From an uncultured Bacilli bacterium (GTDB lineage Bacteria > Bacillota_I > Bacilli_A > RF39 > UBA660), in NCBI GenBank assembly GCA_944351765.1, contig CALVPR010000013.1, positions 1 to 37,908 on the forward strand: 37,908 nt of DNA. Reading direction: 5' to 3'. Below the pieces are notes generated by a model, which ran no database searches, was not told the origin of the DNA, and worked only from the letters and a program-made list of their open reading frames with translations. The translations under genes and the position numbers were made by a program. Below, piece by piece: positions 2,499 to 34,953 of this stretch. Within the stretch, counting starts at the first letter, position 1; the number at the start of each line of letters is the position of its first letter.

Positions 2499-3548
2499 CT
2501 ATTCTTCTACATCCTCAGCTTTTTTTACATCTATTTTATAATGAGTAAGTCTAGACGCTAGTTTAACGTTTTGTCCCTTTTTACCAATTGCTAATGAGAA
2601 ATTATCATTGTCTACAATGGCAAGAGCTTCTTTTTTCTTTTCATCTAATATACGTACTTCTATATTTTTAGCAGGAGATAAAGCATTTGCAATAAATGTA
2701 GCAGGATCTTTATCATATAATATTATATCTATTTTTTCTCCATTTATTTGTTTTAAAACTCTATTAATTCTACTTCCTTTTTCACCAATTATTGCTCCAA
2801 GTGGATCTATATTACTAAATTCTGAATATACAGCAATTTTACTTCTTGAACCTGCTTCCCTTGCTACAGAATATAGAATTACAGATCCATCACTTAATTC
2901 AGGTATTTCTAACTCTAATAATCTCTTTAAAAATCCATAATGCTTTCTAGATAGTAATATAAATACTCCTTTAGTACCAATATCAAGTTTAGATACATAT
3001 ACCTTTACTGAAGAACCCATTTCTAATTTTTCTCCTGGAATTATTTCATCTTTAGGTAAAATACCATGAGTTCTTCCTAAATCTACATAATAGTTATTAG
3101 CATCTTCTCTAGATAAGATACCTACTAATAACTCATCTTGTTTATCTTTAAATTCTTCTGTTATATTATTTTTTTCTGCTTCTTTAATTCTTTGAACTAC
3201 TACTTGTTTAGCAGTACCTGCAGCTACTCTACCAAAATCAGTTAATTCTTCATCTTTTTCAATTGTTTCTCCAATATTGATATCAGGCACTATTTTTCTA
3301 GCATCTTCTAAACTAATTTCAATTCTATCATCATTTACTTCTTCTACTACTGTTTTAAATGAGCATAATCTAATTTCTCCAGTTTCTGGATTTACTGTAC
3401 ATTTTCCATTAGGGTTTCCTGTTTTCTTTTTAAAAGCTGCTACCATTGCCTGTTCCATTGCTTCAATTACAATAGATTTGTCTATTCCTTTTTCTTTAAT
3501 AATACTATCTAATGCTGTTAAGAATTCCTTAATTTGTTTACTATTCAT
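2499..3548 (-). CDS. nusA: Transcription termination/antitermination factor NusA
   Basis: RNA polymerase-binding factor that controls pausing, termination and antitermination. 349 residues: an N-terminal RNAP-binding domain (about 1-130, with the EAMEQAMVAAFKK helix), an S1 domain (about 135-200), then two KH domains (about 200-345). The second KH domain carries the AIGKKGQNVKLASRL motif. It ends just after KH2 and has no acidic repeat extension, which is the usual Gram-positive form. The ribosome site AAGAGGAG lies six bases before the ATG. The gene starts one base after the rimP stop and is in the same transcription unit. Confidence 0.97.
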   Translation of the reverse strand: MNSKQIKEFLTALDSIIKEKGIDKSIVIEAMEQAMVAAFKKKTGNPNGKCTVNPETGEIRLCSFKTVVEEVNDDRIEISLEDARKIVPDINIGETIEKDEELTDFGRVAAGTAKQVVVQRIKEAEKNNITEEFKDKQDELLVGILSREDANNYYVDLGRTHGILPKDEIIPGEKLEMGSSVKVYVSKLDIGTKGVFILLSRKHYGFLKRLLELEIPELSDGSVILYSVAREAGSRSKIAVYSEFSNIDPLGAIIGEKGSRINRVLKQINGEKIDIILYDKDPATFIANALSPAKNIEVRILDEKKKEALAIVDNDNFSLAIGKKGQNVKLASRLTHYKIDVKKAEDVEE

Positions 3549-3549
3549 T

Positions 3550-3801
3550 TTATACTCCTCTTTCCTTTGAAGAAATATCTAATATATAACTTTCTTCAAT
3601 AATATCATTTTCATCTAATATTGGATTAATAATATTTGTTACTTCTACACAAGTATCAACATCGATAGGTACTTCTCTATCAATAGTTATTCTAAGAAAA
3701 TTATTATTTCCTTCTTTTTCATAGATAACACTATCAATAGTTACACCAATTTCATTTACCTTCTCTTCTACTAAATCTCTTACTTTTTTCTCTATGTCCA
3801 T
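3550..3801 (-). CDS. rimP: Ribosome maturation factor RimP, single-domain form
   Basis: RimP assists 30S subunit maturation. The product is only 83 residues, against about 150 for typical family members. It covers the N-terminal alpha/beta domain, ending at the segment that corresponds to the usual YxLEVSSPG (here YILDISS). The C-terminal SH3/Sm-like domain is absent, and nusA begins immediately afterwards, so the loss is not an obvious frameshift. I chose the ATG at 3801 because GGAGGT lies six bases upstream; the longer open frame to 3852 has no ribosome site and runs through the leader hairpin. Identification rests on position as the first gene before nusA and on the N-domain pattern. It is the promoter-proximal gene of the operon. 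Confidence 0.85.
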   Translation of the reverse strand: MDIEKKVRDLVEEKVNEIGVTIDSVIYEKEGNNNFLRITIDREVPIDVDTCVEVTNIINPILDENDIIEESYILDISSKERGV

Positions 3802-4124: not shown

Positions 4125-5153
4125 TCACTTACAATTTTCTATTTGTTTTGTTTCATTTAACAATTTATCAAAATCAGAAATATAATTTTTATCTTGAATC
4201 ACTTTATATTTTTCATATTCATTTTCAGCCTTTTCTACTGCTTGTTTATGCGAAATCTTTCCTTTTCCTTCTAATACTTCATAATGAAATAATTTTAAAG
4301 CATTTTCTACTTCATTTTTCCAATCATTCATATACATTGTAATATTTCTTTCAGCATTATTTTCAGCAATATCTAAAAACAAATTTACTAAATTATTTAA
4401 TTTTTTTATTTCTCTCTCATCTAAATAATTTTTAGCAATTATACAATCAGATTTTAATATCTTACCATCAGGAGAATTTTCCCAAGTAGTAAGTCCCATA
4501 TTTTTCTTTTTAGAATCTACTCTATTGTAAATAATTTCCGCTGCTGTTTGTCCTGTAATTGCATAATGAAATTTATTTTGAATTGTTTTATAAAATGTTA
4601 TAGCCATATCACTATTTCTATCATAATCAATAGAACATTCTGCAAAAATATCAGTAATTTTTTGATAAAACATTCTTTCACTTGTACGAATTAATTTAAT
4701 TCTTTCAAGTAATCTTTTAAAATATTCTTGATCTGATTTTCTTGCTTTCATAAATCTTTCATCATTTAAACAAAAACCTTGTACCATATAGTCTTTAATT
4801 ATTTTATTCGACCAAATTCTAAACTTTATTGCCTTTTTAGAATTAACTCTAAATCCAATAGAAATAATCATATCAAGATTATAGTATGGATAAATTCTTT
4901 TAACTTCTCTATTTCCTTCTTTTTGAACTTGTGCAATTTTTGCACAAGTTGAATTTTCTTCTAATTCTTTATCATTATAAATATTTTTAATATGTCTAAT
5001 AACACCACTTCTATCAATATTGAAAAGTGTAGCAATAGCTTCCGTATTTAACCAAACATCTTCATTTTCTAATAGTACTTCAACCTTTACATTTCCTTCT
5101 TCATCATTATAAAATAAAATATTTTTTTCATTTCCAATTAATTTATCTTGCAT
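4125..5153 (-). CDS. rhuM: RhuM-family protein
   Basis: 342 residues, matching the RhuM 'virulence protein' family in length and pattern. The N-terminal DNA-binding-like half has VWLNTEAIATLFNIDRSGVIRHI, with the invariant STCAKIAQVQ segment at about residue 67 and YNLDMIISIGFRVNS followed by a WSN segment. A conserved C-terminal half follows, with YHYAITGQTAAEII-like text. Biochemical function is not established for the family. It is often found with Fic genes, restriction systems or mobile islands. Here it stands alone behind a tRNA gene, a common integration site, with its own promoter and no partner. The family assignment is firm; the role is unknown. Confidence 0.88.
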   Translation of the reverse strand: MQDKLIGNEKNILFYNDEEGNVKVEVLLENEDVWLNTEAIATLFNIDRSGVIRHIKNIYNDKELEENSTCAKIAQVQKEGNREVKRIYPYYNLDMIISIGFRVNSKKAIKFRIWSNKIIKDYMVQGFCLNDERFMKARKSDQEYFKRLLERIKLIRTSERMFYQKITDIFAECSIDYDRNSDMAITFYKTIQNKFHYAITGQTAAEIIYNRVDSKKKNMGLTTWENSPDGKILKSDCIIAKNYLDEREIKKLNNLVNLFLDIAENNAERNITMYMNDWKNEVENALKLFHYEVLEGKGKISHKQAVEKAENEYEKYKVIQDKNYISDFDKLLNETKQIENCK

Positions 5154-21424: not shown

Positions 21425-21453
21425 CCTAGAGAAGTATTTCATACTTCCCTAGG
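21425..21453. repeat. Stem-loop II downstream of the variable gene (no T-run)
   Basis: A 13-base stem (CCTAG.GAAGTAT against ATACTTC.CTAGG, with one G-T wobble) and a three-base loop. It is rich in G+C for this window. No T-run follows in either direction, so an intrinsic terminator is unlikely. It is one of two hairpins side by side. Confidence 0.75.
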
Positions 21454-21507: not shown

Positions 21508-22893
21508 TTATCCCAAAGTATATGGATTTTCAGAAGTTCCTTCTCCACCAGTAATTTCTACTGTTGATAATAGATAAAGGACTGGGGAAGCGGAGTAGTA
21601 GGAGAGGTACGCGTCGTAGTTGCTAACGTGACCAGTCGCGCGCACATTAAAGACGCCACGCGAGCGACTGGAGTACGGAGTAATGGTCCACTGGTATAAA
21701 CTAGAATTATATAAATAATCATTATTTTTACAATCACTATAACTGGAATTATTCCAATTATATAATTGTTTTGCTAAACAAGATGCTCTATTTGTGGTTG
21801 TTCCTCCACTTGTTGCATAGCCATAGTCAGATGGATACATTAATCCTATTTTACCTATCCAATATGTTGGATGACCACTATATACTGTTGTTCCTCTTTC
21901 ATATCCGTAAAAGTGACTAGCTAGTCCATTGGATGCGCTTGTAAATGATGCAGTTCCTCCTAGGTTCCAGACAGCATCTCCTATTAAAGATTTTGCTTCC
22001 TCTGTAAGCCCCGTTGCACTAAAATCACAACTCTTTGTAGCACCATTTTGTCCACTTGGACAAGTACCACTTGTTCTATTCCAGTATGCACCACTATTTA
22101 ATACTTCCATTAAAGCACTGTCAACCCAATTATTTTCTCCATTCGTTCCTTTATTATCCCAAGACATAGTACCTATTTGCTCATTTCTTATTATTTTTAG
22201 TCTTTTCTCAGTTGGGCCATCTTTAATAGATGCAACATCAAAAACACCAATTATTCGCCATAACTCATTATTAAATGATACATAATTATTAGGATCCGCT
22301 CCCATATATCTTACATTACCATCAGGGTCATCATTATTCATTGTTTCAGGATTACTTGCAAGTAATGATTCTATATATTCTGAAGCATTAACAGGTTCAA
22401 ACTTTACTTCAGTTATTAAAGTATGATTATTTGGCAATATCAAGTCCCCACCATTTTCATAACCTGCTATTGGTACTAATGTTAAAGTAATATCACTAGT
22501 ACTATTATTTTCTATTATTAAAGTTATTTGTTTTACTTCTCCTTCATTTATTTTACCGCTTACAGTATCTCTAGATGTAGACATTTGTGCTATAGTTATA
22601 TCATCTGTTTTTACAGATGATGGAGTATATGCTATTCCATATTTAACTGTGCCACTATTATTATTAGTTAAAAATATATCTAATATTTTTGTTACTCCTG
22701 CTTTAACATTAACTACTCTTCCAGTTTGATCTGTTATGTCAAAAGTATATGCTAAATCTGTTACAGTTGCAGTACCTTCACTCATTGTAATGTCTGTTGC
22801 TAATGTTTGATACAAACTTACTGTTATCAGAGCTATTACTAATAAAGATATTAAAATAATTTCTCTTTTTTTTAAATTATTTAATATAGCCAT
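21508..22893 (-). CDS. Surface-anchored or secreted protein with C-terminal lectin-like domain and putative DGR variable region
   Basis: 461 residues. The N-terminal signal anchor lies at about residues 11-31, after a KKRE charge cluster. A beta-rich Ser/Thr/Asn domain (about 35-165) follows, then a domain beginning NYVSFNNELWRIIGVF (about 205-450) and a constant tail PVLYLLSTVEITGGEGTSENPYTLG. Proteins ending in W.I.P......V...G......PVLYL are common in uncultured gut Firmicutes, and I read the end as a C-type-lectin/formylglycine-enzyme-like fold. Cysteines at about residues 286, 297, 370 and 387 could form disulfides. Residues 402-438 are encoded by anomalously G+C-rich, NNC-type codons. 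No sortase motif is seen. RBS AAAGGCGGG. Family naming is uncertain; the ORF is certain. Confidence 0.85.
   Translation of the reverse strand: MAILNNLKKREIILISLLVIALITVSLYQTLATDITMSEGTATVTDLAYTFDITDQTGRVVNVKAGVTKILDIFLTNNNSGTVKYGIAYTPSSVKTDDITIAQMSTSRDTVSGKINEGEVKQITLIIENNSTSDITLTLVPIAGYENGGDLILPNNHTLITEVKFEPVNASEYIESLLASNPETMNNDDPDGNVRYMGADPNNYVSFNNELWRIIGVFDVASIKDGPTEKRLKIIRNEQIGTMSWDNKGTNGENNWVDSALMEVLNSGAYWNRTSGTCPSGQNGATKSCDFSATGLTEEAKSLIGDAVWNLGGTASFTSASNGLASHFYGYERGTTVYSGHPTYWIGKIGLMYPSDYGYATSGGTTTNRASCLAKQLYNWNNSSYSDCKNNDYLYNSSLYQWTITPYSSRSRGVFNVRATGHVSNYDAYLSYYSASPVLYLLSTVEITGGEGTSENPYTLG
21580..21690 (-). other. Putative diversity-generating retroelement variable region (VR)
   Basis: By my count about 56 of the 95 bases at 21586-21680 are G or C, against roughly a quarter for the rest of the window. 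Read as codons (about residues 402-438) 19 of 35 end in C: tac, tcc, cgc, ggc, cgc, cac, agc, aac, tac, gac, ctc and others. Nearly all other codons in this gene end in A or T. A series of AAC codons in a template whose adenines are randomised to any base gives exactly this NNC set, while fixed codons (GTC, GCG, GGT) stay in between. The reverse transcriptase and template repeat are not in the window. Confidence 0.65.
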
Positions 22894-33818: not shown

Positions 33819-33851
33819 TAAAAAAATAAAGTGTTTAAAATTCACTTTATT
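33819..33851 (-). terminator. Terminator of the LysM gene
   Basis: Stem AATAAAGTG/CACTTTATT with a nine-base loop, then a T-run on the minus strand. It overlaps the stop codon at 33847. Confidence 0.8.
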
Positions 33852-34953
33852 CTATTATTAAAATTTGGCCTATACTAAGTAAGTTACTTGTTAAATTATT
33901 TAACTTTTTTAAATTATCTACGGTTGTATTAAATTTTCTAGCTATTGAATATAAATTATCTCCACTTTTTACAACGTAAGTAGTTTCTGTTACAGAAGTA
34001 GTAGGTATTTTTAATACTTGACCTATACTAAGTAAGTTACTTGTTAAATTGTTTTCTTTTTTAATAGCATCTACTGTAACATCATAGTTTTTAGCAATAG
34101 AATATAGACTATCTCCACTTTTTACTGTATATGTAATTGTATTACTAGTTTCTCCCTGATTACTATTTGGTACTTTTAACACTTGACCTATAGATAAAAC
34201 GTCACTTGTTAAGTTATTTGCACTTTTTAATTCAGATACTGTGGTTCCTAATTTATTTGCTATTCCATATAATGTATCCCCTTTTTGTACTGTATAAGTA
34301 TCTGCAGTTACTGTAGCACTAGGTAGTAATAGTGTTTGACCTATTGTTAATGTATCACTTGTTAAGTTATTAATTGTTTTTAATTCATTTACTGTTGTAT
34401 TATTATCTCTTGCTATTGAATACAAACTATCTCCTTTTTTAACTACATATATATTTTTTTCATCATCTTGAACATATTTTTCAGGTATTTTTAGTAGTTG
34501 ACCAACACTTAGTGTATTACTAGTTAAATTATTTAATTTCTTTAGTTCGTCTACAGTAGTACCTAATTTGTTTGCTATTCCATATAGTGTATCTCCTTTT
34601 TGCACTGTATAGGAATTACTAACAAATCCTTCTGGTGGTACATATTTAAATCCTTTATAATCTGCAACTGCTCTAATTACTGCTTCTGCTAATCTTTGAT
34701 AATTTTCTTTTAAAAATTGTACATTAGCATTACTATCATCTATAAAGCCATATTCTACTATTATTGGTTCTGTTTTACCAGTATTTCTATGAATAAAATA
34801 ATAATCTTTACTAGTATCAGAAGGTAATCTTCTTTGATAATATTTTCTAGTTGATTGACCTTCTGCTCCAATAGACTCTAATACTTTTTTAGCAAGAGTA
34901 TCAGTATTTCTAAGTGCATAAATTACTTCAGCACCGGTACCACCTCGCGATGG
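33847..34953 (-). pseudogene. 5'-truncated N-acetylmuramoyl-L-alanine amidase with five LysM repeats
   Basis: The open frame begins only after a TGA at 34954-34956 and has no start codon at the amidase end. Its first residues are GGTGAEVIYALRNTDTLAKK, the middle of an Amidase_3 domain. It keeps YYQRRLP and the catalytic Glu in IIVEYGFIDD, but the first 80-100 residues with the zinc ligands are missing. A linker and five LysM domains follow ([YT]VxxGDxLY[GS]IA at about residues 117, 167, 220, 275 and 325), ending at the final repeat. Intact relatives hydrolyse the peptidoglycan stem-peptide bond, often in spores. A GTG at 34605 could still start a LysM-only protein. The break coincides with the start of the neighbouring cassette. 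Confidence 0.8.

Follow-up and report, generated by a model that had tools for sequence, protein, structure and literature searches.

The locus examined here raises the question of why a short stretch near the 3' end of one gene is so much richer in G+C than the A+T-rich genome around it, and of where the machinery that might have written it resides. An earlier, sequence-only reading took the stretch for the variable region (VR) of a diversity-generating retroelement (DGR). We examined it in the window, which is the whole stretch of DNA that was analysed (37,908 nucleotides), in the assembly to which the window belongs (gut-type Bacilli genome G000; 1.29 Mb, 64 contigs, 92.7% complete) and in related genomes. 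The stretch is very probably the VR of a DGR target, where the C-type-lectin-fold tip of a surface protein has been rewritten by mutagenic retrohoming. In this process the adenines of a template are replaced at random while its other bases are kept.

Composition and extent of the variable region

The G+C content of positions 21580-21690 was found to be 57.7% as compared to 25.6% across the window, which bears out the high G+C that had been reported near the 3' end of the surface-protein gene. The maximum of the contig is formed by the 95-base stretches starting at 21579 and 21584 (60%), with the next separate one reaching 48%. Beyond the high-G+C stretch the gene ends in A+T-rich sequence, STVEITGGEGTSENPYTLG. 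The reported bias towards NNC codons was also recovered: C is the last base in 19 of the 35 codons 407-441, while codons 1-395 include 19 such codons in all (binomial P ~2e-16, calculated post hoc).

A search of the whole assembly revealed two full-length relatives of the stretch, on contigs C7 and C11, each located at the 3' end of a long gene. When the window, C7 and C11 copies were aligned, 34 of 130 columns were observed to differ over the stretch, with 17, 14 and 3 of them at codon positions 1, 2 and 3 respectively. The window copy differs from C11 at 12 of 375 positions in gene bases 826-1200 and at 23 of 105 in the VR; in the comparison with C7, 17 of 225 positions differ in gene bases 976-1200, as do 24 of 105 VR positions. 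VR divergence from the two paralogues is thus 22-23% as compared to 3-8% just upstream, and together with the codon-position counts this indicates that the stretch evolves far faster than its neighbourhood, at amino-acid-changing positions. Adenine is present in some copy at 28 of the 34 variable columns, but this carries little weight in an A+T-rich genome and was left unused. Variation among the three copies spans codons 407-442 (21568-21675); residues of about 407-436, which had been proposed to be diversified, do vary, but the variable span is slightly wider. Upstream of codon 407 the C11 copy alone deviates, at codons 400, 403 and 404. In Table 1 the start of the VR (codon 404 on) was set by homology to the template of a related DGR, L127, and codons 407-442 by the variation in the own genome.

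Table 1. Features of the variable-protein locus (positions in the window; residues of the encoded protein)
Feature	Position	Strand	Residues	Basis
Variable-protein gene, 461 aa	21508..22893	-		ORF; AlphaFold model, pLDDT 86.3
5' part of gene, resembling the sister-species gene at the same place	22402..22893	-		Windowed identity; L083 synteny
N-terminal helix, presumed membrane anchor			9-36	AlphaFold model
Beta-sandwich			about 43-144	AlphaFold model
Predicted DUF6273-like C-type-lectin-fold domain with VR	21511..22401	-	165-461	Domain model, pLDDT 94.9, pTM 0.93
Variable region (VR)	21568..21684	-		Alignment of three own-genome copies; codon test with L084 template; alignment with L127 template
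Hairpin H1, after stop codon	21456..21489	-		RNA fold; 2 of 14 pairs change on both sides
Hairpin H2, directly after H1	21425..21453	-		RNA fold; 4 of 13 pairs change on both sides, 98.1% of cells paired

Homologous templates and the search for an own template

Relatives of the window protein were found at 33 loci, where 25 come from records titled uncultured Bacilli bacterium and the remaining eight from Candidatus Ventrenecus (3), Candidatus Caccenecus (1) and further MAG contigs (4). Locus L084 is a complete DGR that comprises a target, a template and a reverse transcriptase (RT) as well as MutS-like and Avd-like proteins with weak scores. Its target is 63% identical to the window protein over residues 164-460, and its template and VR differ at 21 of 38 A sites and at 1 of 64 other sites; the self-comparisons that yield this and the other template-VR pairs list only pairs that pass filters on G+C and mismatch number, and in some cases on A bias, and therefore give no unbiased count.

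Within codons 406-436, all 16 variable codons were found to be AAC or AAT in the L084 template as compared to 1 of the 15 others (Fisher P = 6e-8, conditional on the choice of this template, which belongs to a homologue rather than to the window gene and was picked by an adenine-tolerant scan). Codons were counted as variable if they vary at positions 1-2 among the three own-genome copies; codons 404 (positions 1-2, in C11 only) and 442 vary too but lie outside the tested range. Over codons 406-436, variation is therefore confined, with one partner of the comparison being the homologue's template, to adenine-rich template codons, in agreement with the earlier proposal that adenines are the targeted bases. 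The paralogue comparison and the AAY codons of the homologous template both support the assignment of the stretch as a DGR variable region.

Three places in the genome, on C32, C18 and C7, were identified with the RVT_1 profile. The cassettes on C32 and C18 are complete and consist of one or two targets, a small MutS-domain-I protein, an Avd-like protein, an RT and a template. Both have an adenine-specific template-VR pair: at C32, 22 of 33 A sites and 1 of 70 other sites differ, and at C18 the corresponding values are 10 of 24 and 0 of 50 for one target and 16 of 29 and 4 of 60 for the other. The Avd-like proteins of L084, L127, C18 and C32 score below curated cut-offs. The NF033474 (Avd) profile gave E values of 3e-11 at C18 and 9e-5 at C32, which we counted as Avd although both are below the curated cut-off, and Pfam bAvd matched C18 only, below its cut-off. 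In NCBIfam the best match of the C18 and C32 RTs is the group II intron RT, followed by a few other RT models, all far below cut-off.

Both templates were considered as trans donors for the window VR and rejected since they mismatch it at 25 of 60 (C18) and 25 of 66 (C32) non-adenine sites. The C7 copy was likewise rejected as a template as it sits within a 446-aa gene. The sequence-only reading had suggested a genome-wide search for a near-copy of the stretch and for a DGR-type RT with an Avd gene. RTs with Avd-like neighbours and adenine-specific template-VR pairs were indeed found, but no near copy that could act as template for the window VR was seen in the 92.7%-complete assembly, nor was a copy of the L127 template recognised there. 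With no own template found, the VR assignment rests on the paralogue comparison and on the homologous complete DGRs.

Fold of the variable protein

In sequence searches the window protein gave no match in Pfam, NCBIfam or the PDB. Of 31 domains aligned, 14 are matched by the DUF6273 profile at E<=0.1, but that of the window protein is not; the L127 target scores above the family cut-off. The model of domain 165-461 was found to match 9qa6, the N-terminal domain of the Thomasclavelia ramosa IgA peptidase, with a Z of 17.5 and an rmsd of 3.5 over 220 aligned residues. Other C-type-lectin folds match much more weakly, all with Z <8, where a match would show little taken alone; among them are the DGR variable proteins TvpA (2y3c, Z 4.9) and TaqVP (5vf4, Z 3.9). 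With the whole-protein model, 9qa6 is the one C-type-lectin-like structure recognised among the matches listed. In the available excerpts of two papers, this domain is called C-type-lectin-like by its authors (PMC12237041) and is described as DUF6273 (PMC12402451). It has the same fold as the window domain but is part of an enzyme and shares 18% identity with it. The C-type-lectin fold that had been expected of the carrier protein is thus supported by a predicted structure, and the domain is modelled as a DUF6273-like C-type-lectin fold, with the VR near the 3' end of its gene.

Strands 413-417 and 423-427 of the AlphaFold model fall inside codons 407-438. By analogy with other DGR targets, these codons probably form an exposed binding surface. 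The protein would be anchored outside the membrane and its lectin tip would bind variable ligands. The gene is located between rlmN-like and yunB-like genes. Elsewhere in the window, positions 33847-34605 encode a protein composed of five LysM domains.

Hairpins downstream of the gene

The two hairpins H1 and H2 follow the stop codon, and H1 lies 78 bases from the last variable codon. Over eight sequences, 96.3% of the cells in H1 and H2 pair and six pairs change on both sides as compared to 1.5 in shuffles and 0-1 when slid, although these sequences are related and the controls are therefore too favourable. Further pair types show no excess over the eight sequences (8 as compared to 8.8 in shuffles). 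Hairpin H1, used as a tag, gave nine matches in 4 of 386 family genomes, which were drawn from a larger group, and none with the reversed-pattern control. Target genes precede seven of the nine matches (three in G000, two in G005 and two in G212). Both remaining matches are in G086, one at a contig end and one next to which tblastn showed no target.

The G+C content of the VR was observed to fall as the downstream folding, computed as energy over the first 70 bases after the stop, weakens (rho -0.58, P 9e-6, n = 51 target genes, where the relatedness of the sequences makes the P value too favourable). These genes consist of tblastn matches (E up to 1e-20, reaching query residue 455 or beyond) together with L127, two targets of C18 and one of C32. 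L080, L088, L089, L103 and L106, which duplicate contigs already included, were left out, as were L126, which has no coordinates, and L110-L112, which failed the filter. Exceptions are L102, where a VR of 60% G+C occurs with weak folding, and L050 (29%), L100 (41%) and L096 (42%), where folding is stable. Genes without stable downstream folding tend to have A+T-rich VRs. This tendency is also followed by a fourth, distant target-like gene of the own genome, on C37 (L051:4210-5601). It is a decayed target: a TGA interrupts its reading frame, its VR is A+T-rich and a stable hairpin is lacking.

In the system of Bordetella phage BPP-1, a hairpin after the VR promotes homing (PMC3240598, in the sections available, which also underlie the comparisons made here). 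BPP-1 and the present DGRs are alike in having a VR at the 3' end, adenine-specific pairs, an RT, an Avd and an inverted repeat after the target. The geometry of the repeat is different: the BPP-1 hairpin is G+C-rich, 7-10 bp long and located 4-34 bases after the VR, whereas here there are two long hairpins, the first of them 78 bases away and with a stem that is not G+C-rich. The MutS-domain-I accessory proteins are another difference. The conserved and covarying double hairpin after the window gene is comparable to the homing hairpin/cruciform of BPP-1.

A related engine and its remains at C7

An intact DGR with the same downstream double hairpin was found at L127, in a genome of another genus (G212). 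Its order is target, hairpins, a divergent HTH gene, two MutS-like genes, an ORF, template, Avd-like gene and RT, and its template and VR differ at 18 of 35 A sites and 2 of 76 other sites. The two MutS-domain-I-like proteins are encoded at 3411-3770 and 4287-4670, the first scoring below the Pfam cut-off. An ORF of about 100 aa recurs in DGR cassettes (L027:2433-2723 and L127:4025-4336; 44% identical over 81 columns) and has no Pfam or NCBIfam match. HTH regulator genes are found divergent before the MutS-like, Avd and RT genes or their remains (L026:5033-5347, L024:5277-5582 and L127:4783-5088). An HTH_3 domain is present in the C32 and L127 copies of this small regulator, which may control the MutS-like, Avd and RT genes.

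At C7, only the 3' part of an RT is present, near a VR copy. This fragment is 83% identical to the L127 RT over 128 aa, the next of the seven RTs compared being that of C18 with 54%. C7 and L127 are 90% identical from the end of the target through the HTH gene, and identity resumes, at 88%, inside the RT gene. The alignments have an overlap of 21 bases, in which 16 of 21 positions agree with C7 in one alignment and 20 of 21 in the other. A 2.28-kb part of L127 that includes the template and the MutS-like and Avd-like genes is without counterpart in C7. To judge from these alignments, a simple deletion between imperfect repeats of 21 bases probably accounts for what is missing at C7.

RTs of the L127 type (68-85% identity) were found in four of the seven genomes of the genus, and each is incomplete: the C7 fragment, a fragment in G002, one in G004 that has no start and one in G003 whose frame is open but is cut at the contig start. 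None was found in the draft assemblies of the other three. In G002, a gene with a DDE transposase domain (L073:4749-5924, on contig C10) is located between a DGR target and the RT fragment. A search of the seven genomes with the L127 template gave six matches and no L127-type template was recognised among them. Two lie in target genes (G001:C27 and G005:C51) and four, including one at C18 of the own genome, are of 29-44 bases and fall, by their coordinates, in templates of other DGR types. We read this pattern as probable decay of the engine, with the provision that the assemblies are drafts and an intact copy may be missing from them.

Between the window VR and the L127 template, 20-22 of 76 non-adenine sites differ. 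Differences at A sites are in weak excess in the window copy (P 0.006), and for C7 (P 0.14) and C11 (P 0.09) the excess does not reach significance. L127 is therefore considered a cousin and not the template. Most likely, the window gene is a target located remotely from its engine, and this engine is either broken or unassembled. The gene would have been a remote target of a DGR with an L127-type RT. The core of that DGR, with the template, the MutS-like proteins, Avd and the 5' part of the RT, would have been deleted from the C7 locus, so that the diversity of the window VR would be recent but maybe now frozen.

Alternatively, the VR might still be diversified in trans by an intact DGR of the L127 type that is either unassembled or carried by coexisting strains. 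We consider this a serious candidate, although we do not favour it. An assembly in 64 contigs that is 92.7% complete leaves room for such an element, the RT in G003 is open up to the contig start, and the window hairpins are intact and its VR is still G+C-rich. There is also a precedent in Thiohalocapsa PB-PSB1, where some targets without a reference template had intact structural variants in long reads (PMC10907252, as excerpted). It is opposed by the genus genomes, where L127-type RTs are incomplete in four of seven and absent from the other three, and where the template was recognised in none of the seven.

A mosaic gene

The first 525 bases of the window gene are unlike C7 or C11, and likeness to these copies starts further 3'. 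Windowed comparison gave an identity to C11 of 91-100% for bases 826-1200. In a sister species (L083), the syntenic gene is flanked by the same genes as here, of which four were compared and are 93-99% identical. Its 5' part is similar to that of the window gene, whereas its VR and hairpin type differ. This syntenic gene (L083:7944-10325) codes for a target of 793 aa in which two lectin-like domains are arranged in tandem, both of them with a VR-like stretch. From these comparisons the window gene is a mosaic, and its domain, VR and hairpins apparently travel between genes as one block.

Such exchange could by itself be the present source of variation, with recombination between paralogous targets and no reverse transcription since the engine was lost. 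Both the mosaic structure, with its orthologue-like 5' part and C11-like bases 826-1200, and the different VR and hairpin type of the sister species speak for this. However, the differences among the three own-genome copies concentrate in the VR, at codons that are AAY in the template, and block exchange alone does not create that; we regard this explanation as improbable. Recent horizontal transfer, or contamination of the assembly, as the origin of the high-G+C block without any DGR link can be set aside almost entirely, as base composition is all that favours it whereas the same genome has paralogues of the same make with neighbouring bases only 3-8% divergent, related genomes have homologous blocks with templates beside RT genes, and the codon test contradicts it.

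Relation to known systems

The presumed remote target with a broken or unassembled engine can be compared with systems in print, as far as excerpts of the cited papers describe them. DUF6273 DGR targets are found in gut phages as tentaclins and as Faecalibacterium prophage targets (PMC10743442, PMC11792537). Like the window gene they have the VR within a DUF6273/C-type-lectin fold, but the window gene is located between rlmN-like and yunB-like genes and has an N-terminal helix and a beta-sandwich. No link to a mobile source was seen in our searches. The window protein had no match in phages, three stretches of viral contigs matched a pattern but none encodes a relative, the VR and hairpin patterns had no match in viral contigs, and the VR DNA had none in plasmids.

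Targets far from the RT and loci with parts of the machinery missing are described for the remote variable proteins of cyanobacteria and the degenerate loci of Thiohalocapsa PB-PSB1 (PMC7517822, PMC10907252). The present case differs from these in that the searches gave no template for the remote target and that simple deletion would account for the missing part of C7. MSL (PF01624) and HRDC have been named as DGR accessories (PMC10053308). As far as these excerpts go, published descriptions exist of remote targets and degenerate loci as well as of DUF6273 targets and MutS-like accessories. A large metagenome survey stated that its own approach would not detect remote targets (PMC8144416), and no paper that treats diversity-generating retroelements together with RF39 was found in the literature searched.

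Implications

The present case indicates that base composition alone can reveal a DGR target in an A+T-rich genome, far from any intact RT. In related genomes, targets and engines form a graded series from apparently live to decayed. One reading of this series, which we offer as a speculation and hold to be rather doubtful, is that targets outlive engines: DGR cores would decay repeatedly while the lectin-tip genes keep their hairpin-tagged VRs and exchange blocks. If so, diversity would be kept and reshuffled in these bacteria without an RT, or between the visits of one.
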